This document shows, in pieces, positions 6,770 through 33,411 of a stretch of DNA of 35,865 nt; the first letter of the stretch is position 1, and the number at the start of each line of letters is the position of its first letter. Location: positions 1 through 35,865 of the forward strand of contig JANXXR010000006.1 of NCBI GenBank assembly GCA_025350525.1, given 5' to 3'. The translations under genes and the position numbers were made by a program. This stretch comes from Deltaproteobacteria bacterium (GTDB lineage: Bacteria > Myxococcota > Myxococcia > Myxococcales > 40CM-4-68-19). Below the pieces are notes generated by a model, which did no database searches, was not told the DNA's origin, and worked only from the letters and a program-made list of their open reading frames with translations.

Positions 6770-7801
6770 ATGCGCGCACACCGGCCAGCGCTAGTCGCAG
6801 CGCTTTGCATTGCCGCCGCATCCTGTAATTCGGGTTCGCCCGCTGCGCCCGGCAAACGGGACCGCAGCCACGAGGTCATCTCGGATGCGGCCCACAACAG
6901 CGGCACGCCGGGAATCTATTTCCTCCGTCCCATGATGCCCGCGCAGCCGGCGCAACTCGGGCACAGCGCCCCGCCCGGGAGCTTCGGCGGCCCCTGGGTG
7001 GTCATCGATCGCATCTCGCTGCCCGCGGGATGCGTCAACGACTGCCCGGCGCAGGTGATCACGCCCAACGTCACCACCATCACCCGCACCGCCACCAGCG
7101 ACGGCACCGGCATTCCCGTCAGCAAGGGCGACGCGCGCAACCGGCTCGTCTACCACGTCAACCGCGTGCCGCCTCCGCCCGGCGACAGCGAGCCCGACGC
7201 CGACCTCGACGACGTGCCCGACGGCTACTGGTCGACGCACTGGGAGTCGGACGACTTCGGCACCCTGGTGAACGGCATCTACCGCGCTCACGTGTTCGTG
7301 GGCAGCGTCGCGCAGCCGCTCGAGCTCGGGTTCGCCGACATCGAGATCGTTCCCGACGGCATCTCGAACGCCGTCTGGAAGAAGATCGATCGCACCGAGT
7401 TCGTGCCGCTCAAGTTCGGGCACACCCTCCTCATCACCTTCCAGATCGAGCCTTCGGCGCTGGTCTGCCTGGGCGTCGCCTGCACCGCTTCGGACTCGTG
7501 CCACCTGGCGGGCGTCTGCGACCGCAGCACCGGCGCCTGCTCGACCCGGCCGCGCCGAACGGCACCTCTTGCGCGACCAACGGCGGTCAGTGCCACGGCG
7601 GGAGCTGCTCGTGCCCGACCGGGTACTCGCTCGCGAACGGGACCTGCACGCCGATCGACAGCTGCCTCATCCATCACGGCGGGTGCAACGGCGCTGCCGT
7701 CTGCACCAGCACCGGGCCCGGCCAGAACGTCTGCGGCTGCAACCCGGGCTACACCGGCGACGGCAAGAGCTGCACGCCCGGCCTCGCCATCACCGGCGTG
7801 A
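6770..7801 (+). CDS. Giant secreted lipoprotein, part 1: signal peptide and N-terminal domain (frameshifted)
   Basis: The start ATG 6770 gives MRAHRPALVAALCIAAASC, a lipoprotein signal peptide with Cys19 as the expected lipidated residue. A Gly/Pro-rich stretch and a beta-rich domain of about 200 residues of unknown function follow, then a Cys-rich segment (CLGVACTASDSCHLAGVC). Real coding sequence in this frame ends near 7547; the remaining codons to 7801 are an out-of-frame Arg/Ala/Pro-rich tail. Restoring one C in the CCC run at 7545-7547 turns the sequence into STPAAPNGTSC and joins it smoothly to the next frame, so one base appears to be missing here. It is the 5' part of the gene continued in the next three entries. 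The function is unknown; an outer-membrane or surface location is inferred. Confidence 0.75.
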   Translation: MRAHRPALVAALCIAAASCNSGSPAAPGKRDRSHEVISDAAHNSGTPGIYFLRPMMPAQPAQLGHSAPPGSFGGPWVVIDRISLPAGCVNDCPAQVITPNVTTITRTATSDGTGIPVSKGDARNRLVYHVNRVPPPPGDSEPDADLDDVPDGYWSTHWESDDFGTLVNGIYRAHVFVGSVAQPLELGFADIEIVPDGISNAVWKKIDRTEFVPLKFGHTLLITFQIEPSALVCLGVACTASDSCHLAGVCDRSTGACSTRPRRTAPLARPTAVSATAGAARARPGTRSRTGPARRSTAASSITAGATALPSAPAPGPARTSAAATRATPATARAARPASPSPA

Positions 7802-10260
7802 CCGACGGCGAGATCACCAACGCCGCCTCGGTGACGCCGGTGATCGTCTCTCCCGCGCCGGTGACGGCGGCGCTCGCCGGCGCGCCCTTCCTCTCCGGGA
7901 CCGCGGTCGCCGCCGAGGGAGATCACCTGCTCGCCGCGACGGCGGCAGACGCCTTCGGCAACCAGAAGTCGGCGACGGTGCACTTCTCCCTCGATCGAAC
8001 TCCGCCAGCCGTGGTCATCGCCGGGGTCAGCGACGGCGAGCTTCGCGCCGCGCCGGCGACCATCTCCTTCAGCGCCACCGACGCGCACCTCGCATCGGCG
8101 GCCGCGACCCTCGATGGCGCGCCCTTCGCCTCGGGGGGCACGGTCGCTAGCGAAGGCCTGCACCAGGTGGTGGTGACCGCTGCGGACGCCGCGGGAAACA
8201 GCGCCGTCGCCTCGGTGACGTTCCGCATCGTGCTGACGCCGCCCGCGATCGTGGTCGTGGCGCCGAGCGATGGCGCCTACCTCAACACCGCCACCGCCTC
8301 TGTGGTCGCGCAGGTCACCGACCAGGGCGGCGGCATCGCGCAGGTCCAGGCCAACGGCGTCGCGATGGTGTTCTCCACGGGCGCATTTCGCGCCGACCTG
8401 CCGCTGCTCGAGGGCGTGAACACCATCGCCGTCGCGGCCAGCGACCTGGTCGGCAACCGGTCGCAGGTGACCCTTTCGGTAATGCGCGACACGACACCGC
8501 CCGCGATCAACCTGACCTCGCCCGCCGACGGCGCGCACCTCGCGGCTGCGAGCGTGCAGGTGGTCGGCGTCGCCACCGACGCGAGCCCGCTGGTCGTGCG
8601 GGTCGACGGCGCGCCGGTGTCGCCGAGCTTCGCCACCACGGTGGCGCTGACTCCCGGGGCGAACCTGATCGTGGTCTTTGCCACCGACGCGGCCGGCAAC
8701 TCCTCCACCGTCACGCGCCAGGTGCGCTCGAACACGGTGCCGCCCGCGCTCGCGGTCCTGTCGCCGCCCGATGGCCTGATCACCAGCCAGACGACCATCG
8801 CGGTTTCCGGCACTGCCCCTCCCGGCGACAGCGCCGACACGCTCTCAGTCACCATCGACGGCGCGCCCGCGGCCCTGACCGGCGCGGCCTTCAGCGGCGC
8901 CGTCTCGCCCCCCGAGGGCGACCACACCATCGTCGTCACCGCCAAGGACAGCTACGGCCTTTCCGCGCAGCGGCAGATCCACCTCACGCGCGACACCACG
9001 CCGCCCGTGATCGCCATCAGCGGCGTGGCCGACGGCGAAATCCGCACCAGCCCCGTCAGCATCTCGTTCAGCGCCAGCGACGCGCACCTCTCTTCCGTCA
9101 GCGCCACGCTCGACGGCGCGCCCTTCGCGAGCGGAGGCACGGTGAAGAGCGCGGGGCCGCACGCGCTGGCCGTCCTCGCCAGCGACGCAGCAGGAAATGC
9201 GTCGGCCGTGTACTGCACTTCCGCCTCGCCCTTGCGCCGCCGCAGGTCACCATCCTCGCGCCTGCCGACGGCAGCTACGGTAACTCGCCCACCGCGGCCG
9301 TGGTCGCGCAGGTCACCGACGGCGGCGGCGGCATCGCGCAGGTCACCGCCAACGGCGTGCCGATGGCGCTGGGGGCAGGCGGGCTCTTCCGCGCCTCGGT
9401 GGCGCTCACCGAGGGCCACGACCTGATCGCGGTCACGGCCACCGATCTGGCGGCGCAGTCGGCCCAGCAGACGATCTCGGTCGTGCTCGACACGCAGCCC
9501 CCGGCCCTCAACCTCGCCGCTCCGGCCGAGGGCGCGTTCATCGCCGCGCTCAGCGCCACCGTCAGCGGCACCGTCACCGACGCGAGCCCGCTGGCGCTGA
9601 CGGTCAACGGCGCGGCGACGGCGGTGGCCGCCGGCGGAAGCTTCTCCATCACGGCGGCGCTGTCCGCGGGAGCGAACACCATCGTGGCGTTGGCGACCGA
9701 CGCGGCGGGCAACTCCTCGGCGGTGACGCGCCACCTGCGCGCAAACAGCGTGCCGCCCGCGCTCACCGTCTCGTCGCCGGCCGAAGGCTTGATCACCAAC
9801 CAGACCACCATCGCGGTCTCCGGGACTGCTACGCCCGGCGACAGCACCGACACGCTCTCGGTCACCATCGACGGTGCCCCCGCGGCCCGGTCGGGCTCCG
9901 CGTTCAGCGGCGCGATCTCGCCGCCCGAAGGCGATCACACCATCGTCGTCATCGCCACCGACAGCTACGGGCTCTCCTCGCGGCAGGAGGTGCACATCAC
10001 GCGCGACACCACGCCGCCGGCCATCGCCATCAGCGGCGTCGCCGACAGCGAGGTCCGGACCAGCCCCGTTACCATCTCGTTTAGCGCCACCGACGCGCAC
10101 CTGTCGTCCGTCAGCGCCACGCTCGACGGCGCCTCGTTTGCGAGCGGAGGGACGGTGAGCGCCGCGGGAGCTCACGCGCTCGTGGTGGTGGCCGCCGACG
10201 CGGCGAGCAACCAGGCGACGCAGACCGTGCACTTCAGCATTGCGGCAGCGGGCGTCTTCA
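7480..10260 (+). repeat. Roughly 1 kb tandem Ig-domain module in the giant lipoprotein
   Basis: A block of four Ig-like domains, opening with PP.I.I.GV.DGE.R and containing FSA.DAHL.S, starts near 8002, recurs near 9001 and starts a third, incomplete time near 10014. The periods are 999 bp and 1013 bp, the second becoming 1014 bp (338 codons) once the missing base near 9213 is restored. The later two starts are more alike than either is to the first, which suggests stepwise internal duplication. Confidence 0.75.
7549..9426 (+). CDS. Giant secreted lipoprotein, part 2: EGF-like region and Ig-like repeats
   Basis: In this frame the protein continues with a Cys-rich EGF-like region (NGGQCHGGSCSCPTGY, then CGCNPGYTGDGKSC), followed by a string of Ig-like beta-sandwich domains of about 80-90 residues. 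Most domains open with a DTTPP-type linker and close with DAAGNS-type sequence, the signature of bacterial Ig-like/cadherin-like repeats used as spacers or adhesins on the cell surface. The real frame ends near 9212. There GTG-TAC-TG-CAC has five bases where sister repeats need six, so one base is missing; codons from 9216 to the stop at 9426 in this frame are spurious. No start codon with a ribosome-binding site is evident at 7549, which supports continuation from part 1. Confidence 0.75.
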   Translation, partial: AAPNGTSCATNGGQCHGGSCSCPTGYSLANGTCTPIDSCLIHHGGCNGAAVCTSTGPGQNVCGCNPGYTGDGKSCTPGLAITGVTDGEITNAASVTPVIVSPAPVTAALAGAPFLSGTAVAAEGDHLLAATAADAFGNQKSATVHFSLDRTPPAVVIAGVSDGELRAAPATISFSATDAHLASAAATLDGAPFASGGTVASEGLHQVVVTAADAAGNSAVASVTFRIVLTPPAIVVVAPSDGAYLNTATASVVAQVTDQGGGIAQVQANGVAMVFSTGAFRADLPLLEGVNTIAVAASDLVGNRSQVTLSVMRDTTPPAINLTSPADGAHLAAASVQVVGVATDASPLVVRVDGAPVSPSFATTVALTPGANLIVVFATDAAGNSSTVTRQVRSNTVPPALAVLSPPDGLITSQTTIAVSGTAPPGDSADTLSVTIDGAPAALTGAAFSGAVSPPEGDHTIVVTAKDSYGLSAQRQIHLTRDTTPPVIAISGVADGEIRTSPVSISFSASDAHLSSVSATLDGAPFASGGTVKSAGPHALAVLASDAAGNASAVYCTSASPLRRRRSPSSRLPTAATVTRPPRPWSRRSPTAAAASRRSPPTACRWRWGQAGSSAPRWRSPRATT

Positions 10261-18948: not shown

Positions 18949-21744
18949 TCAGCGGATGTGGATCGCCCCGGAGGTCAGCTTGCCGGTGATCGCCGTCCCG
19001 TCGCTGAGGGTGAGGGTGATCGAGCCGCCCCCCACCGCGCTGTCCACCGCCACCAGCGTGAAGGTGACGAGGTGGCCGGCGTTGACACCCGCGCCGGTCA
19101 TGGTCGCGCTGTGGCTGACCGGATCCGAGGAGGCCGAATCCGTCCGCGTCGAGCGGAAGCTGGTGCCGGTGCCGTCGTCGCGGTAGTCGGCCTTCTCGCC
19201 GCCGTCGTTGCAGACGAAGGCGAACTGGCCGTGCTTTCCGTTGCCCTCGTCGGTCTCGCCGGCGCCGTCGTCGTGCTGGTCGCCGCAAGTCAGCGGCACC
19301 GGCCCGACGTTGCCCAGCGTGAAATCGAACGACCGGGTCGCGTCCACGTCGGTGTAGAGGTCGGTGCGGGAGTTGTCCCGGCCAAAGGTGAGCGCGGTCA
19401 CGTTGTAGAGCGTGCTGCCGAGGATGGGGCGGCCCGGACCGAAGCCGTCCAGCGGCACGTCGATGGTGATGATGTCCCCCTGCACGGAGCCCTGGGCGGC
19501 AAACTCGGCCGGGTACTGCACCACCTTGCAGGTGTCGGGGGTGGTGATGACGCAGCCGGTGCCGGGGACCGCGCCCTGCGAGGAGGAGCCGCTGCCCGCG
19601 AAGAAGCTGGGCGGGCCGCCCGCCACCGACTCGGCCCCGAGGTAGAAGATGCGGTACGACTCCTCTCCCTGGTCGCCCCGCGAGAGCGCCTGGAAGCGGG
19701 TCAGCCAGACCGCGTTGGCCTTGCCCGGCGGCGGCGCGAAGCTCGCCAGCTTCTGCAGACCCATCTGCACCCGCAGCGTCTTGAGGTCGGGCTGGCTGAG
19801 CGCGATGCCGGTGAAGTCCAGCTGCGGCTGATTGGCGCCGGGTCCGGTCACCGGCGCGTAGTGCGGCGACTGCGCGTCGCCGGTCGGGTCGAAGGTCGGG
19901 TCTCCCGGCGGCGTCTCGGAGAGGACCCTGCCAGAGGCGGTCGGGCCGGCCAGCTGGCGGGTCTCGAAGAGGTGCGCGCCGTGGTGCTGGCTGGTGGTGT
20001 CGTTGTAGACGATGCGCAGCCTGCCGTCGCGGTCGAGGGTGATGCCGAAGTAGTCGGCCATGGTGCGATCGCCGCCGCTGATGCAGAGCGTGCCGTTGGT
20101 GCAGATCTGGCCGTAGTGCATCGGCTTCTCGGTGAAGCGCGCCTGGGCGAAGGCCGGCGTCGCCGAGAGCGCATTGGTGATGACCGAGGCGTAGCCGTAC
20201 CACTTGTACGCGGTGGCGGCCTGCCGGTTTACCGTCCACGAGGCCATGAGATTTGGATCGAGGCGCTCGGAGGTGCCGTACCAGACGGCCACCAGCGTGC
20301 CGGCGGCGCCCGCCTGCGTCCAGGGCATGATGTTGGTGTTCGCGTCCGGGCCGCCGTTGATGCGGACGATGGGACCCCAGTGCGCCCCCGCGTCGGTCGA
20401 GGCGGTGTAATAGACGTTGTAGTCCTTCCGATCGACCCACACCGCGTAGAGGTTTCCGGCGGCGTCGGTCGAGACCACGGGGAAGAGGTTGCTGACGTTG
20501 CCGCCGGGCGAGGCCGGCGTGTTGACGGTGTGGAAGAGGATGCCGGTGCGCTGGCCAGGGTCCACGTGGCCCACCGAGATGATCACGTGGTCGCCGCCGC
20601 CGCAGGGCAGGTAGAGGTTGCGGCGCACCGGATCGAAGCGCATCTGGCCGCAGGGCGCGCCGGTGTTGACCGTCGTCTGCGGCGCCGCCGTGGCAGGCTG
20701 GTAGACGATGCCGCCCACCGGATCGGCCGGGCCCGTCGAGCCGGGCGTCGAGTAGACGTACGGCCCGGTTTGGAGCTGGCGGAAGGTGAGAAAGACGGTG
20801 TTGTCGGTCGCCGCCGCGGTCAGGCCGTTGTCGACCGCGAGCCACTGCCGGTCGATGGCGGCGTTGGCTCCCCCGAACGGATTCTTGCGAAAGCTGTTGC
20901 CGTGGTCGTTGGAGACGGAGACCCCGATGCCGGTGAGATCCTCGAGGTCGGAGAAGTATGCGTAGCCCTGGTCGTCGACGACGACGTCGGTGTCGCCGCC
21001 GCCCGGGGGCGGGTCGGGCCGCACGCCGACGCTGAGGGGCGTGACGATGTTGAACTGGTCGCCGCGGTCCACCGAGCGGTGGATGAACGACTGGTTGGTG
21101 CTGGCGCCGAACGGCCCCGACTCCCAATAGGCGCCCGAGCTGTCGATGACGCTGAGCGGCTCGCCCTCGGTGCGCTGCGCGTCGACCACTGTCGCCGGAC
21201 CGAAGGCGAGTCCTCCGGTGGTGCGGGGCGGACCCTGCGTCGGGCCGCCGGGGGTCGAGGCGAAGAGGGCCGTCCCGCTGTAGCCTCCCATCACCACGGT
21301 GGCGGGCAGCACGCGGACTTCATACGTGCCCGACGGATTCTTCAGGAACACGCTTTCGGTGCAGGTCCCGCCTGCCGACTTTCCCACCTGCGTCCCCGCC
21401 GCGTCGTAGACGTAGAGGTCGAAGTCGTTGAGCGTGCTCGGGCAGGTGATGTCGATCCGGACCCCGCCGTTGTTGGTGGCCCAGTAGGAGCTGGGGACGT
21501 CCACCGTCAGGTAGTAGTGATCGCAGCGGAGGTTGGCCGGGTCGGCCGCGGGCGGGCAGGCGGCCGGATCGGCGTTGACGCCGACCACGTACGTCTGCCC
21601 GGTCCAACTCGCCGAGGTCGAAGCCGGACCGACGGTGCCGGCAGGCGGTGTCGCAGCCCGGGACGAGAAGGCGGCGAGCAGGGCCGCGACGGCGAGTCCA
21701 GCCGGCGACAGGCGGTGCGAGTGAGTCCACTGAGCGCAGGTCAT
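18949..21744 (-). CDS. Exported BNR/Asp-box beta-propeller protein, third gene of operon
   Basis: This 931-residue secreted protein has a signal peptide (LAVAALLAAFSSRAA). Residues about 40-175 form a PPC-like beta-domain (NDFDLYVYDAAGTQV, typical of secreted peptidase accessory domains). A sialidase-type propeller follows with Asp-box-like strands (SVDRGDQF, SNDHGNSF, STDAGAHW), then further beta-domains. The C-terminal part has an acidic stretch (DDGAGETDEGNGKHG) and a beta-domain ending TLTLSDGTAITGKLTSGAIHIR, of a kind that often closes secreted proteins. The catalytic Tyr/Glu pair and Arg triad of true sialidases are not apparent, so it may bind glycans or proteins. CCGGAGCT precedes ATG 21744; the gap to gene two is 12 bp. 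Confidence 0.85.
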   Translation of the reverse strand: MTCAQWTHSHRLSPAGLAVAALLAAFSSRAATPPAGTVGPASTSASWTGQTYVVGVNADPAACPPAADPANLRCDHYYLTVDVPSSYWATNNGGVRIDITCPSTLNDFDLYVYDAAGTQVGKSAGGTCTESVFLKNPSGTYEVRVLPATVVMGGYSGTALFASTPGGPTQGPPRTTGGLAFGPATVVDAQRTEGEPLSVIDSSGAYWESGPFGASTNQSFIHRSVDRGDQFNIVTPLSVGVRPDPPPGGGDTDVVVDDQGYAYFSDLEDLTGIGVSVSNDHGNSFRKNPFGGANAAIDRQWLAVDNGLTAAATDNTVFLTFRQLQTGPYVYSTPGSTGPADPVGGIVYQPATAAPQTTVNTGAPCGQMRFDPVRRNLYLPCGGGDHVIISVGHVDPGQRTGILFHTVNTPASPGGNVSNLFPVVSTDAAGNLYAVWVDRKDYNVYYTASTDAGAHWGPIVRINGGPDANTNIMPWTQAGAAGTLVAVWYGTSERLDPNLMASWTVNRQAATAYKWYGYASVITNALSATPAFAQARFTEKPMHYGQICTNGTLCISGGDRTMADYFGITLDRDGRLRIVYNDTTSQHHGAHLFETRQLAGPTASGRVLSETPPGDPTFDPTGDAQSPHYAPVTGPGANQPQLDFTGIALSQPDLKTLRVQMGLQKLASFAPPPGKANAVWLTRFQALSRGDQGEESYRIFYLGAESVAGGPPSFFAGSGSSSQGAVPGTGCVITTPDTCKVVQYPAEFAAQGSVQGDIITIDVPLDGFGPGRPILGSTLYNVTALTFGRDNSRTDLYTDVDATRSFDFTLGNVGPVPLTCGDQHDDGAGETDEGNGKHGQFAFVCNDGGEKADYRDDGTGTSFRSTRTDSASSDPVSHSATMTGAGVNAGHLVTFTLVAVDSAVGGGSITLTLSDGTAITGKLTSGAIHIR

Positions 21745-21756
21745 GGCGAGCTCCGG

Positions 21757-24639
21757 TTAGCGGGGGTGGATGGAGAGGACGCCGGACACCAGCGGCGCGC
21801 TCTTCTGATAGAGGAAGCCCAGCGGCCCGGTGATGGTCATGGTGAAGGTGCCGACCTGCGTCGCCGTCGGCAGGTTGCAGGCGGTGAACGCGTAGGTGTA
21901 GCCGGGCTGGAGGTTCACGGTGGCGGCGCCGAGCAGGTTCACGCAGGCGCCGTTCGAGTAGGTGACGGCCTGCGAGCCGCCCACGCTCTGCATGGTGAAG
22001 TTGTCGCGGGGCGCGCTGTACTCGACGTTGCTGTTCTCCGGGTGGTTCGGGTCGTCGGAGAAGCTGGCGTGATCGCGGTCGGCAGCGTCCGAGTCGTCGC
22101 CCTCGCCGCTGTCGCCGCCGCCGCTGCCCGGAGGAGCGCCCACCCAAGTGGCGGTGTCGAACCGGTATGTGCCGTTGAGGCGGGTGAGGTCGGAGATGCC
22201 GTCGCCCCCGCCGGTCTGGGCCTGGCCGCGCAGGCCAATAAAAGTCGCGCCGGAGACGATGGCCCCGTGCTTCTGCAGCGCGTTCAGCTTCGCCAGCGCG
22301 ACCTTGACGGTGACCTGCTTGTTGACGAGGTCGAAGGCGCCGAAGTCCGCCGGACCGACGGTGGTGTAGACCATGTGCCCGCCGGAATCGCGCACCGCGG
22401 TTCCGTACGAGAACGTCTGCACTCCCTGCGGGTCGGTCGCGGCCAGCAGGAACCACTGGTCGGCGTGGTCGGAGACGAACGGCCGCGTCGGGTTGGTGGC
22501 GAAGCTCATCCGCCAGGTGCTATCGGGCGGCACCGAGGTCAGCCCCGACAAGCGCATGGTGGCGCTGATCAAGGTCGTCGGCGTGGTGACGTCGCAGCCG
22601 TATTGCACCGAGAGGATGTCCACCGGGCTGTCAGTCGGGGTGACCGCGAGGAGCCCGGCGGCCTGATCGTGCAGCTCGTCGACGACCTGGGGCTGCGTCG
22701 GGTCCGGCGCCGGCGCGCGATCGGTTCCCTGGATCTTCACCTGCGCGCCGGTGTGGAGGCTCAAGCCGCCGGTCTGGTGGGTGACGTACGGGTTCCCCTT
22801 GTAGTCGTTGTGGTCGTCGTCGAAGGTGATGAAGGCGAGGCCCTGCGGGTCGGTCTCCAGCTGGAAGAAGTCGCCCAGGTTGCGGTTGGCCGCGCCGCCG
22901 AATCCGCCCAGGCTGATGTTCGAGCCGTGCACGTAGTGGTCGCTCGCCACCGACTGGTAGAAGGTCGGGTTCTGCGCGGTCGCGTTCAGGCTCTCGGCGA
23001 AGAAGACCTTCCAGTTGGCGGCGTCGTTGTTCTGGCCCTTGCCGTCGTCGGTGTCGGAGACCTCGGTGCCGTACCAGGCCACGGCGATGCTGCCCGGCTT
23101 CTTGCCGGTGGTGATCCAGGGCAAGAGCGAGGTCGAGGGGCTGGCGAGGTTGCTGACCTTCACCGGCTGCGTCCAGGTCTTGCCCTGATCGGAGGAGGAG
23201 GCGAGGTAGATGGCCACGCCGCCGTCCGAATAGGCGACGTAGACGGTGCCGTCGGGCGCCACCTTGCACACGGGAAAGAGCGCCGCGATCGTGGCCGTCT
23301 TTCCCGTGGCGGCGGTGACGGTGTGGAAGTCGGCCGCGGTCGGCCCCAGCGAGCGCACCGTCGGGTGGCCGATGGCGACGTTCAGCTGGTTGGCGCTGGT
23401 CCCCTGCATGCAGAAATAGACGGTGCCGTCGCGCTGATCGACGGTGACCGGGCCGGTGGTGTTGCCGCCCACGGCGGCGAGGACGGGCGGGCCATAGGAG
23501 AAGCCGGCGTCGGTGGAGCGGTTGATCCAGAACTTCGAGGTTGCCACGAGGCCGGTGAAGTCGCGGTAGGCGAGGTAGACGGTGTCGCTGCCGTCGAACT
23601 CCATCCAGTTGCGGTCGTCGAGGGGGCTGGCCGAGTTGCCCGCCGGGTTGCGCTGGTAGCTGTTGGCGCGGTCGAAGGAGCGCTGCGTGGAGATGTTGGC
23701 CGCCACCAGGCTGGAGAGCGCCAGCGCCGGCACGTTGCCGCCGCCCGACGTCTGGGGCAGCGCGAAGCCGACCGCCATGTCCATGTCGCCGCCGCCGTCG
23801 CCCCCCAGCTGGGGGTTCTGCTGGCCGGTGACCGAGTCGGGCATGCCCTTGTACGACGGGTTGAAGGAGTTGCCGCCTCGGTCGATCGAGGCGGTCGCCC
23901 TCCGCAAGAAAGGATCGTAGCTGGCGCTGTTCGGGTTCAGGTCGAAGCGCCAGAGGTCATCGCCGCCGGGCACTCCGCGGATGCCGCCCGCGTAGGCGTT
24001 TCCCTGGAAGTCGACCCGGACGCTCGGCTCGTTGTCGCCGGTCGCGGCGAAGGCCAGGAGCGTGCGGTTGCGGCTGAAGGAGATGCCGACCTTGCTGCCC
24101 GGCACGTAGTTCGCCACCCGCGGCGCGGGTCCGGCCGGAATGGCCTCGAGCGCGGCGGTGCCCGTGTAGGGATCGGAGGTCACCACCGCGAAGTAGATGG
24201 CGCGCACCGCGAAGGTGTCGTTGACGCCGGCCGCGACGACGCGGTCGATGTCGAGCGTGGTCTCCTCGCTGGTCTCGGGAACGCCTCCGCCCTTCGAGGC
24301 CACCAGCGGGCCGGAGACGGAGCCGGTGAAGACGTCCAGATCGTAATCGTTGTACTGGTTCACCCACGCGATCTTGAAGTGGATGCGCTTGCCGGTGTAG
24401 TCGCCCGGCGCGAGGCGCAGCGTGAAGGTGTCGCAGTTGGTACCCTCGATGCAGGTGGTCTCGCCCTGCGGGCTCGCGGCCACCGCGGCGAATCCGTTCC
24501 AGGTCACAGTGGCGCCGGGGCTGAGCGTGCCGCTGGCCGGCGTCGCGGCCCGGGCTTCGCGGTGAAAGGAGGACAAGCCGGCGGTCACCACCAGGGTCAC
24601 TGCCGCGGTCAGCGTCGCGAGCATCAACTTGGTTTTCAT
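21757..24639 (-). CDS. Exported BNR/Asp-box beta-propeller protein, second gene of operon
   Basis: This 960-residue secreted protein has signal peptide MKTKLMLATLTAAVTLVVTAGL. A PPC-like beta-domain (YNDYDLDVFTGSVSGPLV, residues about 35-165) precedes a long propeller with Asp-box-like strands (STDAGFSYG, SSDQGKTW). A Cys-poor beta-rich region follows, then an acidic segment (GGDSGEGDDSDAADRDH) and a terminal beta-domain ending SGVLSIHPR. The order of domains matches the third gene, so the two are distant paralogues. AGGAGC lies at good spacing before ATG 24639 and overlaps the TAG stop of the first gene (TTCTAGGAGC), which couples their translation. No catalytic motif is recognised. Confidence 0.87.
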   Translation of the reverse strand: MKTKLMLATLTAAVTLVVTAGLSSFHREARAATPASGTLSPGATVTWNGFAAVAASPQGETTCIEGTNCDTFTLRLAPGDYTGKRIHFKIAWVNQYNDYDLDVFTGSVSGPLVASKGGGVPETSEETTLDIDRVVAAGVNDTFAVRAIYFAVVTSDPYTGTAALEAIPAGPAPRVANYVPGSKVGISFSRNRTLLAFAATGDNEPSVRVDFQGNAYAGGIRGVPGGDDLWRFDLNPNSASYDPFLRRATASIDRGGNSFNPSYKGMPDSVTGQQNPQLGGDGGGDMDMAVGFALPQTSGGGNVPALALSSLVAANISTQRSFDRANSYQRNPAGNSASPLDDRNWMEFDGSDTVYLAYRDFTGLVATSKFWINRSTDAGFSYGPPVLAAVGGNTTGPVTVDQRDGTVYFCMQGTSANQLNVAIGHPTVRSLGPTAADFHTVTAATGKTATIAALFPVCKVAPDGTVYVAYSDGGVAIYLASSSDQGKTWTQPVKVSNLASPSTSLLPWITTGKKPGSIAVAWYGTEVSDTDDGKGQNNDAANWKVFFAESLNATAQNPTFYQSVASDHYVHGSNISLGGFGGAANRNLGDFFQLETDPQGLAFITFDDDHNDYKGNPYVTHQTGGLSLHTGAQVKIQGTDRAPAPDPTQPQVVDELHDQAAGLLAVTPTDSPVDILSVQYGCDVTTPTTLISATMRLSGLTSVPPDSTWRMSFATNPTRPFVSDHADQWFLLAATDPQGVQTFSYGTAVRDSGGHMVYTTVGPADFGAFDLVNKQVTVKVALAKLNALQKHGAIVSGATFIGLRGQAQTGGGDGISDLTRLNGTYRFDTATWVGAPPGSGGGDSGEGDDSDAADRDHASFSDDPNHPENSNVEYSAPRDNFTMQSVGGSQAVTYSNGACVNLLGAATVNLQPGYTYAFTACNLPTATQVGTFTMTITGPLGFLYQKSAPLVSGVLSIHPR

Positions 24640-24649
24640 TGGGTAGCTC

Positions 24650-27535
24650 CTAGAAGTGGAAGGACCAGATGCCGCGGCCGAAGGTCGCGGCGAGGAGGAG
24701 GTTGGGATCGTTCGGGGCGAAGGTCAGGGCCGGCGTGGTGAAGGCGGGAAGGTTCGCGAGGACGCGCCAGGTGCCGCCGTCGAGCGTGCTGGAGATGAAG
24801 ACGCCGAGGTCGGTGCCGACGATCAGCCGGGTGCCGTGGACCACCACCCAGTCGGCCGGCGTGTCGGGCAGGTTGCCGGAGACGTCCACGAAGGTGTTGC
24901 CGCCATCCACCGACTTGAAGACGTGGCCGGTGCCGACGTTCTCCTGGAAGACGGCGCCGGGCGGCAGCCAGTGCGTGCTGTACCCGCCCAGTGCCGCGTA
25001 GACCGTGCGCGGATTCGCGGCGTCCATCCGCACCGAGTTGATGTACCGCCTGGGCAGCCCCGCGGGGTTCGGGATGACGTGCCAGCCGTTGCCGGTGAGC
25101 CGCTGCGCAGGCAGGGCGCCGCCCACGTTGGTGGCGAGCCCGCGACCGAAACGGTGCTGGCTGGTGCCGCTGCAGGGACCGCAATACCCGACGTAGGCGT
25201 TGTCGCCGACCAGGTCCACCGCGGAGAGCCGGTTGTTGGGATCGGCGGTGGTCTTGGTCGCGGCGGCGTCGCCCGGATGGTCGGCGGTGCCGAGGTCGAA
25301 CACCTTGGTCCAGACAAAGCCGGCGCAGGTCTCCTTGGCCGGCGTATTCACCACCGTGCAGGGCTGCGTGTACGCGTCGGTCGTCTCCTGCACGTCGCGC
25401 CCGCCGATGAGCAGGTGGCCAGCGCTGGTCGGATCCTGCTGCAGCGGCGTGGCGAAGAGCGGCGTGGTGAGCGCCGGATCGACGTGCTTCCAGGTGCTGC
25501 CGCCGTCGTTGGTGAGGGCGACCACGCCGCCCGCGTACTCCTCGACGATGTTCTTCGAGTTGTCAGGGTCGATGGCGGTGAAGAAGCCGTCGCCGCCGAA
25601 GATCATCACCTCGTATCCGGTGGGGGTGATCTTCATCTCGCCGTTGTCTTGAAGGCCGGCGACGATGGTGCCGTCCTTGGCGGCGGAGAGGTGGTAGGGC
25701 AAGAGCGTGGCGAGGCCGTCGTTGGCTCCGTTGCCCCAGCGGTCGTTGGAGAAGTCGGCGCCCGCGGCGACGTGCTGGAGGAAGGCGCCGCCGTCGTTGC
25801 CTGCGAGCAGCGTGACCCCGCCGCCCGACGCGTCGGGGACGAAGAGGCCGGCGTGCTGGTCGGGGTGCGTGGTGGTGCCGGGGATGGGCGAGGCGGCGCC
25901 GTTGCACTGGTAGCCCGGCAGCGAGAAGGCACAGGCGTTCCAGTAGCGGGCGATGACCTTCCAGGGAGTCGCCGCGGCGCTGACGCCGTTCTGCGGCTCG
26001 CCGACGAGGGTGTTCTCCCAGATCTCCTCGAGGCCGAAGGCGACACGGGTCGGCGCGTGGGTGAGCGCGTCGGTCGACGTCGGGTCGGCGTCGATCCAGA
26101 GGTTGTACCAGGACTGGACGCCCGGGTCGTAGCCGAGGGCGGCGCCGGCCGGCCCGAGCGAGCTGTTGGTCCCCGGCAGGGTGAGCTGCGACCAGTCCAT
26201 GATCTTGGTCCAGGTCTGGCCGAAGTCCTTGGAGACGTACGCGCCGTCGAGCACGGTGGGCGGGGCGGCAGTGCCGGCCGCGAGGCAGGTGTTGACCTCG
26301 AGGCCGGCCTGCACCTCGTCGAGGCAGCCGGCGATCTTCTGCGCGTCCTGCACGATGGCGTAGACGAGGTTGTGATCCTGGCCCACGCCGTGCGCGACGG
26401 TGAGCGCGGTGCGGCCGACGACGGGCGTGGGGGCGAAGCCGTTCTTCGAAGGGTTGCCGCCCGGGTCGACGAAGCTGAACGTTCCCGGCCTGCCGCTGGC
26501 GGAACGATAGATGCCGTTTTGCGGCGCCTGCTGAAGCGTGGTCGAGAGCGTTCCCTCGGCGTTGCGCATCTTCAGCTGGCCGCCGATCCAGCCGACCGCG
26601 GCGATCACCTGGCCGCCGCCCGCGCCGTTGGCGTCGGCGGGGCGGACCGTCACGTCGGTGACGATGTTGGCGAAGAAGCAGGCGCCGCTGGTGGTGTCGC
26701 CGGCGCAGTTGACCGGGTATCCCGCGGGCGAGGTGGGCAGGGCGACGTTGACGAAGGAGGCGCCGCCGTCGGTCGAGCGGTAGAGGCCCTTGCTGGTGGC
26801 GGCGTAGAGCGTCGCGCCGGTCGCGTCGCTCGGGTCGACGGCGATCCTGAACGAGAGCGCGCCGCTCGGGATCCCGGCGGCGTGGGTCCAGTGGCTCAGG
26901 TCGCGCGTGGTGAAGACGCCCAGACCCGACAGGGACAGGCCGCCGCCCATGGCGTTGTCGCCGGTGCCGGCGATGAGCGTGCCGCCGCCATAGCGGGAGA
27001 AGGCGATGGCGCCGACCACCTGGGTGGGCAGCCGATCGCCCACCGACTGCCAGCTGCCGCCGCCGTTGGTGGATTGCCAGACGCCGCCGCCCGCGACAGA
27101 AGCGAAGTAGCGGCCGGGCCGCGCCGGATCGGCGGCGAAGCCGGTGACGCGCGCCGAGAGCTTCACCCAGCCCAGCGAGCTGACGCCGTCGTTGATGTCG
27201 TTGTAGGCGGGATCATTGGCGTAGAGCGGGGCGTGGCCCACCTGGTGCCAGCCGTTGCCGGCGCCGGTGGCCCCGGTTCCGTCGTCATGATCCATCCCGT
27301 CGCGCTCGGCGATGGCCGACTCCTCCGCCCCTTCGGCGACCTCGTCGTAGGGGGCGGCGTGCTTGGCCACCGCCTCGAACTGGCGCGAGAGCTCCTCGAT
27401 GGGACTCTCGCCCGCGACCCGCCCCTCCCCGGCCTCCCGCTGCGCGCCGGGCCGGTCGGCGCAGAGGACGGCCGCGGCGAGGGACAGGACTGCGAGCCAG
27501 GAGTTCTGCCAACTCAGAGCGCGGAACGGTCGCAT
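24650..27535 (-). CDS. Exported VPS10/GH74-like BNR-repeat beta-propeller protein, first gene of operon
   Basis: This protein is about 961 residues. ATG 27535 is chosen over the track's start at 27571 because AGGAG lies five bases upstream and the signal peptide then begins at MRPFRALSWQNS. The chain is a large double propeller with frequent Asp-box motifs: STNGGGSW, STDGGASF, SKDFGQTW, TNDGGSTW and SVDGGNTF. It closes with LLAATFGRGIWSFHF, the usual last strand of WD40/YVTN/BNR-like proteins related to GH74 and VPS10. The two catalytic Asp of GH74 cannot be assigned. It leads the three-gene operon, and the hairpins at 27602-27743 lie between it and the transposase. Confidence 0.87.
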   Translation of the reverse strand: MRPFRALSWQNSWLAVLSLAAAVLCADRPGAQREAGEGRVAGESPIEELSRQFEAVAKHAAPYDEVAEGAEESAIAERDGMDHDDGTGATGAGNGWHQVGHAPLYANDPAYNDINDGVSSLGWVKLSARVTGFAADPARPGRYFASVAGGGVWQSTNGGGSWQSVGDRLPTQVVGAIAFSRYGGGTLIAGTGDNAMGGGLSLSGLGVFTTRDLSHWTHAAGIPSGALSFRIAVDPSDATGATLYAATSKGLYRSTDGGASFVNVALPTSPAGYPVNCAGDTTSGACFFANIVTDVTVRPADANGAGGGQVIAAVGWIGGQLKMRNAEGTLSTTLQQAPQNGIYRSASGRPGTFSFVDPGGNPSKNGFAPTPVVGRTALTVAHGVGQDHNLVYAIVQDAQKIAGCLDEVQAGLEVNTCLAAGTAAPPTVLDGAYVSKDFGQTWTKIMDWSQLTLPGTNSSLGPAGAALGYDPGVQSWYNLWIDADPTSTDALTHAPTRVAFGLEEIWENTLVGEPQNGVSAAATPWKVIARYWNACAFSLPGYQCNGAASPIPGTTTHPDQHAGLFVPDASGGGVTLLAGNDGGAFLQHVAAGADFSNDRWGNGANDGLATLLPYHLSAAKDGTIVAGLQDNGEMKITPTGYEVMIFGGDGFFTAIDPDNSKNIVEEYAGGVVALTNDGGSTWKHVDPALTTPLFATPLQQDPTSAGHLLIGGRDVQETTDAYTQPCTVVNTPAKETCAGFVWTKVFDLGTADHPGDAAATKTTADPNNRLSAVDLVGDNAYVGYCGPCSGTSQHRFGRGLATNVGGALPAQRLTGNGWHVIPNPAGLPRRYINSVRMDAANPRTVYAALGGYSTHWLPPGAVFQENVGTGHVFKSVDGGNTFVDVSGNLPDTPADWVVVHGTRLIVGTDLGVFISSTLDGGTWRVLANLPAFTTPALTFAPNDPNLLLAATFGRGIWSFHF

Positions 27536-27800: not shown

Positions 27801-28424
27801 TCAGTCGTTGCGAGACAAAGGCGATCGGTCGTGCGCGGGCCGCCTGGGTCGGGCCCGCCGCCATCCGACGCGCAGGAGCCAGGTGCGCGGCTCAGACAGC
27901 ACCTCGCGCGCCGCCGGCTCCGCCGAGGAGAACGGGTCGCGCCCGGCCGCGGCGAAGTGGTGCGCGGCGTTGCCGAGTACGTAGGCAATGGCGTTGGCCA
28001 GCGCGGTGGGCGAGGTTAGCAGGCGTGCGTGGTAGTGGTCGCCGAAGACCTTCCCGGCGCGGCCCATCATCTTGTTGAGCGCCTTGGCGATGCGGATGCA
28101 AAGCCCCTGCAGCGCCCGCGAGAGCGAGGCGTGGTCGTCGGCCTCGAGGATGAGGTGCAGGTGGTTCCCCTGCACGCTGAACTCGACGAGCCGCACCCCG
28201 AAGCGCCCGCGAGCTTTTTCGAAGCAGCTCCGGATGCGCCGGAAGCTCCGCTTGGAGCGCAAGTTCCAGACGTGATCGCGCATGCCCAGGGTCACGTGCA
28301 CCGGCGTCGCCCGCATGAAGCGCGGCCGGGCGGCGTGCGAGACGCGGTTGCCGCGCGGGCGGCCAGCGCCGTCGCGACGACCGCCGCGGGTGGGGAAGCT
28401 GAGCTGGCTGGAGCGAGCGCGCAT
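27801..28424 (-). CDS. REP-associated tyrosine transposase (RAYT / Y1_Tnp family)
   Basis: The 207-residue form starts at ATG 28424 (MRARSSQLSFPTRGGRRDGAGRP), the usual basic opening of this group; the track's start at 28466 adds residues without such a match. An HUH single-strand nuclease fold is indicated by VQGNHLHLILEA, which carries the metal-binding HxH. The segment MMGRAGKVFGDHYHARLL should carry the catalytic Tyr and ends the core. RAYTs cleave and join single-stranded DNA at REP hairpins, and the chromosome often keeps them as single domesticated copies. No insertion-sequence ends or target duplication are visible, but inverted repeats lie just downstream. It appears intact. Confidence 0.9.
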   Translation of the reverse strand: MRARSSQLSFPTRGGRRDGAGRPRGNRVSHAARPRFMRATPVHVTLGMRDHVWNLRSKRSFRRIRSCFEKARGRFGVRLVEFSVQGNHLHLILEADDHASLSRALQGLCIRIAKALNKMMGRAGKVFGDHYHARLLTSPTALANAIAYVLGNAAHHFAAAGRDPFSSAEPAAREVLSEPRTWLLRVGWRRARPRRPAHDRSPLSRND

Positions 28425-28678
28425 GAATTCGGGACTAATTGTACGATCGGCGCCGAGGAGAGTCAAGCCCCGATGATTGAAAAGCCTTTACAGTTACAGT
28501 CGAGGCGCAAGGCGGCGCCGTCGAGGCGGGCTCGCGTGCTCGTCCTCGCCTCGGCTCGCGGACGCGCCCCAGGACCAGCCCGAAACCGAGGCCCTGAACG
28601 AGGACGCGGACGAGCACGGCGCTTAGACGAGCACGGCGCTTAAGTGGGCGGCATTGGGCGAGGGATAGCGGCCCCCGA
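28425..28678. other. Upstream region of the transposase with a 17 bp tandem repeat
   Basis: This 254 bp gap has no supported gene. It contains TTACAGTTACAG near 28488, two GTCGAGGCG copies near 28500-28530 with an inverted CGCCTCG about 18 bases later, and a perfect tandem duplication of a 17 bp unit at 28609-28642. Any promoter of the transposase must lie here. Confidence 0.5.
28609..28642. repeat. Perfect 17 bp tandem direct repeat (2 copies)
   Basis: The unit GACGAGCACGGCGCTTA occurs twice with no gap, 36 bp beyond the stop of the ADYC lipoprotein gene. It may be a slippage product or a scar. Confidence 0.85.
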
Positions 28679-29753: not shown

Positions 29754-32345
29754 TTATTGTTGATCGGAACACAATCGAAACCCGATGAGCAGGCCGCGGG
29801 CGGTGGCCTCGGAGGGCTCGCGGTTGACCGCGCGCGCGGAGAGGGCTCCCTGGTACCAGCTGCCGCCGCGGATGGCCGGCGCGCCCGACGGCGACACCAC
29901 CATCTCCCAGGCGTTGCCGGCCATGTCGGCCGCGCCCACCGGGCTGTTCGAGCGCGGGTGCGAGCCGACCGGGTCGGGCCCGAAGGCCAGCGGCTCGCGA
30001 CCGTAGGTCTCGTCGATGTTGGCGTCGGCGCCCGAGAGGGTGTCGCCGGAAGGAAAGGCGCGACCGTCCGCGCCCCGCGCCGCCCGCTCCCACTCCTCTT
30101 CGCGGCAGAGGCGAGCGCGGGGCACGCGGCCCTGGGAAGAGAGCCAGGCCGCGTACGCGCTCGCGTCCTGGAAGGTGATGCCGGTGACCGGCAGCTGTCC
30201 CCAGTCGACCGCCGCGTTGGTCCTGCGGCCGGGATACACCAAGGGCGCGCCCTCGACCGCCTCGTACGCCCGGGTGGTCGGCTGGATGCGGAGCACGAAG
30301 AGACCGTCGCTGCGCTGCGAGAGCGCGACGCCGTTGCGCGCCGTCTGCACCGCCGGCATCCGCAGCTTCCGCTCCGGCGGCGCGAGGGCGCGCAGGTAGT
30401 CCAGCCATTGGGCGAAAGTCACCTCGGTGCGGGCGATGGCAAAGGCCGCCGACTCCCGCTCGTGCAGCGGCGGCGCGCCGAAGATGCCCAGCCGCACGTC
30501 CTCCTCTCCTTCGTACCCGGTGAAGTAGCGGCCGGCGGGGAGCGCGATGAAGCCGGGCGGCGCCGGCCGGATGTCGCGCAGCTTCAGCTCCTGCCGGTCG
30601 CCGAAGCGGAGCAGCAAGGGCAGGCGCGCGCCAGAAGCCAGCTCGAGGACGTAGGAGCCGGGCTTGAGCTCGCGCTCGGCGCCGGGCTTGAGCTGGATCG
30701 CGGGCGAGGCGTCGAGCAGCGGCCGCAGCTGCGCGTCCACGTCGATCTTCAGGCGCGCGGGCCGCTCGAAAGGAGCGCGCCGCCCGCCGCCCGGGTCCAC
30801 CTGGGCCAGCTGCGCGAGGAGCCCGGCGCGCTCTCGCGAGAGCGGATTCTGCCCGTCGCGCTCCAGCCGGAAGACGACCAGGTCCGCGAGCAGCCGGCGC
30901 GGCTCCTCTCCGGGCGAGAGCAGGAGGGCGCTGTCGATGGCGCCCCGCGCCTGTTCGAGGATCTGCAAAAGGCTGTGGTCGGCCGCCAGCACCCGCGTCC
31001 AGACCTGCTCGGCCACCACCGTCTGGTCGGCGTCGAAGCGGGCGAAGGCCTCGCGGCGCAAGGACCGCTCCTCCTGGTCGAGCGCGCGTGCCTTCTCCAG
31101 CGCCGCGGCCGCCCCGTCCAGCTGCGCGGCGGCCAGCTTGTGCTGGGCGGCCTGCGCGCGCGAGCGGACCTCGGCGATTCCCAGCCCGAGGAGCAGGGGC
31201 AAAGCGACTGCGCCTGCAAGGATGAGGAAGCGCTGCCGGCGCGCCGCAGTGGTCGAGGCCAGGACGAAGCGGCGCTCCCGCTCTCCGAGCGGCAGATCGT
31301 CAAACTGCTGCAGGTCGCGCAGCCGCCGCCGGGACCAGAGGCCCTCCTCGCCGCGGGAGCTCTCCCATTCCTCGGCGGCCCGCTCCAGCCGCATCAACAG
31401 CGCGCGCTTCTGCTCGTCCTGACCCACCCAGGCGCGCAGCTGTTCCCAGCTCTGGATCAACGCCTCGTGCGCCAGCTCGTAGGTGGTGGTGGCCCCCTGC
31501 GCGCTGCCTTGCGGATCGCCCGAGGTGAGGATGCGGGCGGCCACCAGCGCCTCGAGGGCGCTCGAGATGTCGCCTCCGGGCGGGAAGTCGGCCCGGATCC
31601 TTCGCGCCCGGGTGCCCTGGGCGGTGACGAGAAGGCGCAGGATCTGCTCCGCGGCGCGCCGCTGCGCAACGGAGAGCTGGGCGATCGCCTGGTCGGCATG
31701 GCGCGCCAGTGCCCCGCCGACGCCGCCCAGCGCCAAAAGCGCGCTGCCGTCGATGACCCGCCGGATCGGATCGCGCCTCTGCCACAGCTCGGTGACGGCG
31801 AACTGCACGAGCGGCAGCGCGCCGGGCCCGACCTTGGCGGCGGCCACCAGGTCGTCCACCAGCGTCTCTGGCGCGAAGCGGAAGTCCGCCGCCCGCGCCG
31901 GCCCCTCGATGGCCTGTCGCAGGCCCTCCTCGGTGAGCGGCCGCAAGAGGTAGAGGGCGGCGCCGAGCTCGGGGCCGAGCGAGGGCAGCGCCGACAGCCG
32001 CGTGAGGAAGTCGCTGCGGGCGGTGGAGAGGAAGCGGAAGTTCGGGCTGCGAACCGTCAAGGCTCCGAGGAAGCGGCTGAGCGCCTCGGCGTCGTCGGGC
32101 GAGGCGAGCGAGACCAGCTCCTCCAGGCCGTCGATGAAGAGCGCGCGGCCCTGGCCGTCGGGGGCGGCGCGGGCCCGGGCGGCGAGCTGCTCCGGGTCGG
32201 TGCGCAGGGCCAGCGCCGCGGCGAGCTCGTCGACGCCGAGCCACTTTTGCAGCGCCGCTGCGACCGCCTCCACCGGGCGCATGCCGAGCGAGAGCGAGAC
32301 GACCTCGAAGCTCCGCTGCTCCAGCGCGCCTGCCCGCAGCTGGGG
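29754..32345 (-). CDS. C-terminal frame of the kinase: STAND core, helix, PEGA and FGE-like domains
   Basis: This is the part that a gene caller would report separately because of the frameshift (the track gives 29754-32762). The coding match begins with LPQLRAGALEQRSFEVVSL, immediately after the Walker A motif of the other frame. Sensor-type features follow: RFLSTARSDFL, a winged-helix-like region and the membrane helix. If the frameshift is real, the upstream product keeps the kinase domain but loses NTPase, membrane anchor and sensor, and this part has no good start of its own. Confidence 0.75.
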   Translation of the reverse strand, partial: PQLRAGALEQRSFEVVSLSLGMRPVEAVAAALQKWLGVDELAAALALRTDPEQLAARARAAPDGQGRALFIDGLEELVSLASPDDAEALSRFLGALTVRSPNFRFLSTARSDFLTRLSALPSLGPELGAALYLLRPLTEEGLRQAIEGPARAADFRFAPETLVDDLVAAAKVGPGALPLVQFAVTELWQRRDPIRRVIDGSALLALGGVGGALARHADQAIAQLSVAQRRAAEQILRLLVTAQGTRARRIRADFPPGGDISSALEALVAARILTSGDPQGSAQGATTTYELAHEALIQSWEQLRAWVGQDEQKRALLMRLERAAEEWESSRGEEGLWSRRRLRDLQQFDDLPLGERERRFVLASTTAARRQRFLILAGAVALPLLLGLGIAEVRSRAQAAQHKLAAAQLDGAAAALEKARALDQEERSLRREAFARFDADQTVVAEQVWTRVLAADHSLLQILEQARGAIDSALLLSPGEEPRRLLADLVVFRLERDGQNPLSRERAGLLAQLAQVDPGGGRRAPFERPARLKIDVDAQLRPLLDASPAIQLKPGAERELKPGSYVLELASGARLPLLLRFGDRQELKLRDIRPAPPGFIALPAGRYFTGYEGEEDVRLGIFGAPPLHERESAAFAIARTEVTFAQWLDYLRALAPPERKLRMPAVQTARNGVALSQRSDGLFVLRIQPTTRAYEAVEGAPLVYPGRRTNAAVDWGQLPVTGITFQDASAYAAWLSSQGRVPRARLCREEEWERAARGADGRAFPSGDTLSGADANIDETYGREPLAFGPDPVGSHPRSNSPVGAADMAGNAWEMVVSPSGAPAIRGGSWYQGALSARAVNREPSEATARGLLIGFRLCSDQQ

Positions 32346-33411
32346 CAAGCACTCCCGCGCGGCAGAGCGAGCTCTTGCCCACTCCGGAATCTCCCGCCAC
32401 CAGCACGAACGACGCCGCCCGCAGCCGCTCCAGCACCGCGCGCACCTCGCGCTCCCGGCCGAAGAAGAGCGCCGCGTGCTCGGGCCCGAAGACGGAGAGG
32501 CCCCGGTAGGGCTCCTCGGGCAGGGGGCCGCGCTGGTGCGCCAAGAGCGGCTCGAGCACCTCGAGCAGCGCCTCGGCACGCTGGGGGCGGCTGCGCGGAT
32601 CCGGCGAGAGACAGGCATGCACCAGCGCCGCGACCTCTCTGGGAGCCCGTGCGAGCGGCGCAAACGACCCGGCCTCCGCCTGCGACCGCAGCTCGTCGAG
32701 CGTCCGCGCCTGGTAGGGTGGGCTTCCGCTGCAGATCTCATAGATGACCGCGCCCCAGGCATAGAGATCGCTCAGTCGCGTCCCCGGCGCGCCGCCGAGG
32801 AGCTCGGGAGCGGCGTAGAGGGGAGTTCCCACCTGCAGCATGGCGCCGTGCCGTGCCACCGGGTCCGCGGCGCCGGGAAGCGGCTGCGTCTCGGCGAGGC
32901 CGGGGGTGATCTTCTGCAAGGGCAGGGCGTCGGGTTCGGCCAGCGCCGCCGAGACGCCGAAGTCCACCAGCTTGAGCTCCCCGGCGTCGGAGAGCAGCAC
33001 GTTGGCGGGTTTCAGGTCGCGGTGCAGAACGCCAGCCCGGTGGGCGGCGGCGAGGGCACGGGCCAGCTGCAGCGCGATGGGCAGCACCTGGTCCAGGTCG
33101 AGCGGCAGCGGCAAGAGGTCGAGGCTGCGGCCGTCCACCCACTCGGAGACGATGAAGGGCCGCCCCAGCACCTCGCCGACGCGATGGACCGCGACCACGT
33201 TGGGATGCTGCAGCCGGGCCAGCGAGCGCGCCTCGAGCAAAAAGCGCGCGCGCATCTCCGGCCGCTCGGCATGGCGCACGAACTTGATGGCCACCTGCCT
33301 GCCCAGGAGTTCGTCGTCGGCGAGGAACACCTCGCCCATGGCGCCGCGGCCCAGCGGCCGGACGATGCGAAACTCGAAGAAGGCGCGGGGCGGCTGGAAG
33401 TCCTCGCTCAC
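29754..33411 (-). CDS. Ser/Thr kinase + STAND NTPase + transmembrane + PEGA/FGE-like sensor (frameshifted)
   Basis: Read as one protein it is about 1,218 residues. The kinase (1-270) is complete: Lys43 in VAIK, Asp132 in HRDLKPAN and Asp150 in DFG. A STAND-type NTPase follows, with Walker A GDSGVGKSS near residue 345 and Walker B LFIDGLEE. A single helix (LILAGAVALPLLLGLGI) then leads to a coiled coil, a PEGA-like domain and a C-terminal FGE-sulfatase-like domain ending IRGGSWYQG...GFRLCSDQQ. One base too many near 32346-32347 (GTGCTTGCCC where GTGCTGCCC is expected) shifts the frame just after Walker A. The GTG start overlaps the activator stop by GTGA. FGE's catalytic cysteines are absent, so that domain probably binds rather than oxidises. 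Confidence 0.8.

Follow-up and report, generated by a model that had tools for sequence, protein, structure and literature searches.

Many Asp-box propellers have no assigned function, and further families among them were anticipated in a 2009 survey (PMC2716378). Several described groups are close to the proteins reported here. GH74 xyloglucanases (e.g., 5fkq, 6p2m, and 2cn3) consist of tandem Asp-box propellers and have two catalytic Asp residues. GH33 sialidases and BNR_2 proteins have Asp-box propellers, and the Photorhabdus PLL/PHL lectins have seven-bladed propellers, the PLL type with sugar-binding pockets between the blades. The ligands of PLL lectins are fucosylated and O-methylated sugars (PMC12203525). 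Another related group is the post-COAP-1 proteins (NF041523, curated cut-off of 40), including choice-of-anchor P proteins. A search of the literature on post-COAP or on BNR repeats in myxobacteria found nothing relevant.

The window, which is the whole 35,865-nucleotide stretch that was analyzed (contig C485), belongs to a soil myxobacterium-like genome assembled into 728 contigs (5.27 Mb). It contains three consecutive genes for secreted propeller proteins, transcribed in the order G1 (27535 to 24650), G2 (24639 to 21757), and G3 (21744 to 18949).

24650-27535, (-) strand: G1, 961 aa; signal peptide and two tandem Asp-box propellers (GH74/Vps10-like)
24640-24652, (-) strand: 10-bp gap between G1 and G2 with the G1 stop codon; an AGGAG ribosome-binding site overlaps the TAG of G1
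21757-24639, (-) strand: G2, 960 aa; signal peptide, PPC-like domain, propeller, beta domain, acidic linker, and divergent post-COAP-1-like domain
21745-21756, (-) strand: 12-bp gap between G2 and G3 with a CGGAG ribosome-binding site
18949-21744, (-) strand: G3, 931 aa; signal peptide, PPC-like domain, propeller, beta-sandwich, acidic linker, and post-COAP-1 domain

The sequence-only reading of this locus had given the same protein lengths and gaps and had placed the second ribosome-binding site over the preceding stop codon. These details are exact, although "giant", as the proteins were called, is overstated at 930-960 aa. The intergenic bases between G1 and G2 are ...TTCTAGGAGCTACCCAATG, where AGGAG begins within the stop codon, and those between G2 and G3 are ...CGCTAACCGGAGCTCGCCATG. 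All three open reading frames have a GC content at the third codon position of 0.93-0.95 and are therefore genuine coding genes. Their overall GC contents (0.71, 0.69, and 0.70 for G1, G2, and G3) are close to that of the window (0.705), and with the codon pattern and GC content uniform, an assembly error behind the trio was rejected. No terminator-like sites were found between the genes on their strand. Judged by eye, each protein has a Sec-type signal peptide with no lipobox. From the spacing and the ribosome-binding sites, a single transcript would yield three Sec-exported beta-propeller proteins. The operon is real, but it is not conserved as a unit, as described below.

A methyltransferase-like gene lies 20 bp from G3 in convergent orientation. 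On the other side of the operon, G1 is preceded, at 265 bp and on its own strand, by an IS200-like Y1 transposase gene (27801-28466, (-) strand; PF01797, E = 3.5e-6), RAYT-like by eye. Despite this gene, capture of the trio by a transposon was rejected, if weakly. Elsewhere in the window, 29754-32762 ((-) strand) encodes an nSTAND1 NTPase fused to an FGE-sulfatase domain, and 7030-9423 ((+) strand) encodes a 798-aa protein with EGF-like, Ig-like, and glucodextranase-B domains.

Asp-box propellers had been proposed for all three proteins, and this holds. G1 has four strict Asp-boxes (0.03 in shuffled sequences) and G2 has two (shuffle P = 0.002). G3 has only one strict and one loose box (P of about 0.05 and 0.02), but its Asp-box column is conserved across its family and its AlphaFold model is a propeller. 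The Asp-box fold of GH33 is thus seen in G3 from the conserved column and the model, and in G2 by homology only. Pairwise BLASTP among the three proteins gave no meaningful match, not even between G2 and G3. A G2-family profile, however, matches G3 both in the propeller (E = 1.6e-34) and in the N-terminal region (E = 5.6e-18), which bears out the common PPC-like N-terminus claimed for them. These profile-level matches and the common architecture place G2 and G3 as remote relatives in a single family.

G1 is most similar to GH74. Single-sequence searches gave only weak sortilin and GH74 matches, including Pfam Sortilin-Vps10 at E = 2.1e-6, under the family cut-off. A profile of 13 G1-family sequences matches GH74 xyloglucanases across both propellers at E = 1e-33, in comparison with 1e-9 for sortilin. 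The first 24 Foldseek matches of the G1 model are all GH74, with a mean pLDDT of only 59 and blades that cannot be counted. Unlike GH74 xyloglucanases, G1 is about 200 aa longer, no CBM was found in it, and the first catalytic Asp position (TDIGG) has become V/A, reading SVAGGG. Asp is missing at this position in all 11 G1 relatives that cover it; among the xyloglucanase structures, 5fkq has Ala there and 5fkr has Asp. The second catalytic position is kept in G1 (D630, in the motif GLQDNG) and reads Q[DE] across the family. With the first Asp replaced and the second kept, G1 may act as a GH74-fold binder and is not to be classified as a GH74 enzyme. Judging from these residues, it is probably a binding protein.

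In a genome of the same genus (G001), the G1 orthologue is ~74% identical over 939 aligned codons with a dN/dS of 0.33. The gene after it is unrelated (cysteine dioxygenase-like by eye), and when eight genes of the window were compared with a 16-kb stretch of G001, only G1 had a match. Purifying selection therefore keeps G1 in the genus without G2 and G3.

G3 consists of a PPC-like domain (about 30-165), a propeller (about 185-610), a beta-sandwich (about 615-815), and a post-COAP-1 domain (about 825-931) preceded by the acidic linker. An AlphaFold model from 30 sequences (pLDDT 82, pTM 0.74) shows the same order of N-terminal beta-domain, propeller, beta-sandwich, and closing beta-domain. Against PPC (PF04151) G3 scores 20.3 bits (E = 0.001) and its orthologue L049 scores 25.1 bits, below the gathering cut-off of 25.9, and G2 has no PPC match in Pfam. 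The N-terminal domain of the two proteins is thus PPC-like only. All other direct Pfam and NCBIfam matches of G2 and G3 are also below cut-offs (e.g., BNR_2 for G2, E = 0.0034). Single-sequence PDB searches with the two proteins gave nothing useful, and a profile search with G2 gave chance matches only. Foldseek matched G3, at comparable E-values, to the Photorhabdus seven-bladed lectins, GH145, and GH33 sialidases. In the PDB, the G3 propeller fits the PLL/PHL lectins best (TM-score by target length 0.64-0.73); with about 8-13% identity, a high rmsd of 6-10 A, and three extra domains in G3, the likeness of the model to these lectins would be one of fold only. Compared with GH33 sialidases, the G2/G3 family has no FRIP-like motif and no Arg triad among its near-invariant residues, since only R299 and R560 are near-invariant Arg in 30 homologues. 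Together with the Asp position lost in G1, this agrees with the earlier observation that no sialidase or GH74 catalytic set is evident. Conserved residues of the family propeller are E195, D251, D298-R299, R560, and D564, and from their conservation they could form an unrecognised active site.

The acidic stretch and closing beta-domain noted earlier in G2 and G3 are also present, and the latter can be named. Three G3 orthologues (L052, L053, and L054) pass the post-COAP-1 cut-off with scores of 72.6, 72.0, and 65.5 (E = 3e-20 for L052), while G3 and G2 themselves are below it. Aligned together with L049, the closing domain of G3 matches post-COAP-1 with an hhalign probability of 97.7%. For that of G2 with L044 the values are 66% and a pairwise E of 5e-5. 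By sequence comparison, the assignment is clear for G3 and its orthologues and weak for the divergent domain of G2. Post-COAP-1 passes the cut-off in five of the 12 family genomes searched. It sits behind a choice-of-anchor P domain in one same-genus protein that was examined, whereas in G2 and G3 it is joined to propellers. L044 itself (138-1286, (-) strand, in G001) encodes 383 aa with an unrelated N-terminus and a C-terminal domain sharing 43-45% identity with the one in G2. Other G2 homologues end differently: L101 has a FlgD-like tail in place of post-COAP-1, L125 and L127 have no closing domain, and in L083 the part related to G2 follows an S8 protease and is itself followed by a type IX sorting tail. 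The last (L083:683-5803, Ignavibacteria) is a single protein in which the S8 subtilase is joined to a PA domain, the G2-type propeller region, and that sorting tail. Such interchangeable C-termini suggest that post-COAP-1 probably serves as a retention or anchoring module.

G2/G3-type genes are found across many soil phyla. The 80 loci considered came from a genome scan keyed on G3, so the sample is biased toward G3 relatives. G3-clade genes, the orthologues of G3 (38-59% identity), come from MAGs of Chloroflexi, Actinobacteria, Verrucomicrobia, Bathyarchaeota, and "Euryarchaeota". G2 orthologues (34-55%) include L125 and L127 of Acidobacteria (~54%), L101 of Rokubacteria (42%), and L083 of Ignavibacteria (34%). 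The tree joins G2 to Acidobacteria (100/100) and puts G3 inside a mostly Actinobacteria/Chloroflexi set (100/99), where its immediate partner has weak support (83/94). Neither has an orthologue in the Myxococcota genomes searched besides the host (G000); G001 and G008 carry a family paralogue from another clade. Note that a single sampling campaign supplied many of the MAGs, and misbinning may therefore make this spread look wider than it is; independent sites (Antarctic, groundwater, and others) are also represented. Closely similar propeller paralogues are found in L085 (Myxococcota) and L102 (Chloroflexi), both from sample 14_0927_12_20cm (branch lengths 0.09 and 0.05), reflecting either recent transfer or misbinning.

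The proposal of a single extracellular complex of all three proteins is consistent with the tight operon, with exported products of similar size, and with the Verrucomicrobia locus L058, where a G3 orthologue is preceded at about 0.7 kb by a G2-clade gene, in the order seen here. Apart from this pair, the only hint is that same-strand tandems of the family recur, in eight of the 80 loci (L058, L063, L064, L065, L067, L070, L111, and L123; L063 is partly fragmentary). A Chloroflexi contig (L065:1-8476) has about four propeller-family open reading frames in tandem. Conservation of the triplet in relatives, named earlier as a check of the proposal, was not found; the homologues mostly occur singly instead, the outcome that had been named as refuting it. 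The trio is in none of about 195 phylum genomes searched, host aside, and the G1 orthologue of G001 is alone. Across phyla the G2 and G3 orthologues are without these partners: no G1 homologue (E<1e-6) is present in the 80 loci, and in 12 genomes with G2/G3 orthologues the best match to G1 (E = 1e-13, about 33% identity over one propeller segment) is not a close relative. A second family gene is absent from the available flank, sometimes short, in 13 of 14 G3-clade loci and all four G2-clade loci, and nine of the 13 lone G3-clade loci have at least 1.5 kb on each side. Since relatives of each gene are almost always alone, local assembly of surface sugar-binding proteins is the most likely account of the trio, as opposed to a conserved three-part machine, and we consider a complex very unlikely. 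The trio would be a lineage-specific assembly of independently evolving genes.

What these proteins do is less certain. The explanation we favor, at roughly even confidence, is that independently evolving secreted propellers, probably glycan-binding, were gathered into one operon. Glycan binding itself, as the most likely shared function, has in our estimate about an equal chance of being right or wrong; lectin and GH fold matches and the lack of FRIP and of a third near-invariant Arg support it. Most likely the propellers would bind extracellular glycans or other polymers in a lectin-like manner. Counting against this, no ligand-binding site is demonstrable, sialidase and GH145 folds fit G3 about as well as lectins do, the G1 model is of low confidence, and the acidic and Arg residues of G2/G3 may be an active site. 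These residues, the nearest folds (GH33 sialidases, GH145 BT3686, and GH74), and D630 of G1 would instead fit the main rival. Under it, an undescribed propeller family of active enzymes that cleave polysaccharides would include G2 and/or G3, which together with a degenerate or altered GH74 in G1 would degrade a plant or microbial polymer. We regard such catalysis as rather unlikely: none of the three proteins passes any glycosidase family cut-off, the third Arg needed for a sialidase triad is missing along with FRIP, and G1 and its 11 relatives lack the first GH74 Asp. A Vps10/sortilin-like or protease-associated role, with peptides or proteins as ligands instead of glycans, is quite improbable. 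PPC domains are typical of secreted proteases, G1 matches Sortilin-Vps10, and the Ignavibacteria homologue of G2 is fused to a subtilase; but this fusion is a single instance, and the G1-family profile is far better on GH74 than on sortilin. For prey binding, also suggested earlier, no evidence was found.

Secreted modular propellers such as G2 and G3, with a PPC-like beta-domain, propeller, beta-sandwich, acidic linker, and post-COAP-1, would then be lectin-like proteins held at or near the cell. The operon is ordinary in kind, and the cross-domain spread of G2 and G3 is mildly interesting. Because their family has full-length bacterial and archaeal orthologues, conserved candidate site residues, and a C-terminal module, its ligand and anchoring are directly testable. 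Tentatively, and with less than even confidence, G2 and G3 may represent an undescribed family of bacteria and archaea, comprising secreted propellers that act as lectins or enzymes and whose anchoring tails can be exchanged; its members would have been repeatedly transferred among soil microbes and repeatedly gathered into co-expressed sets, this operon being one.
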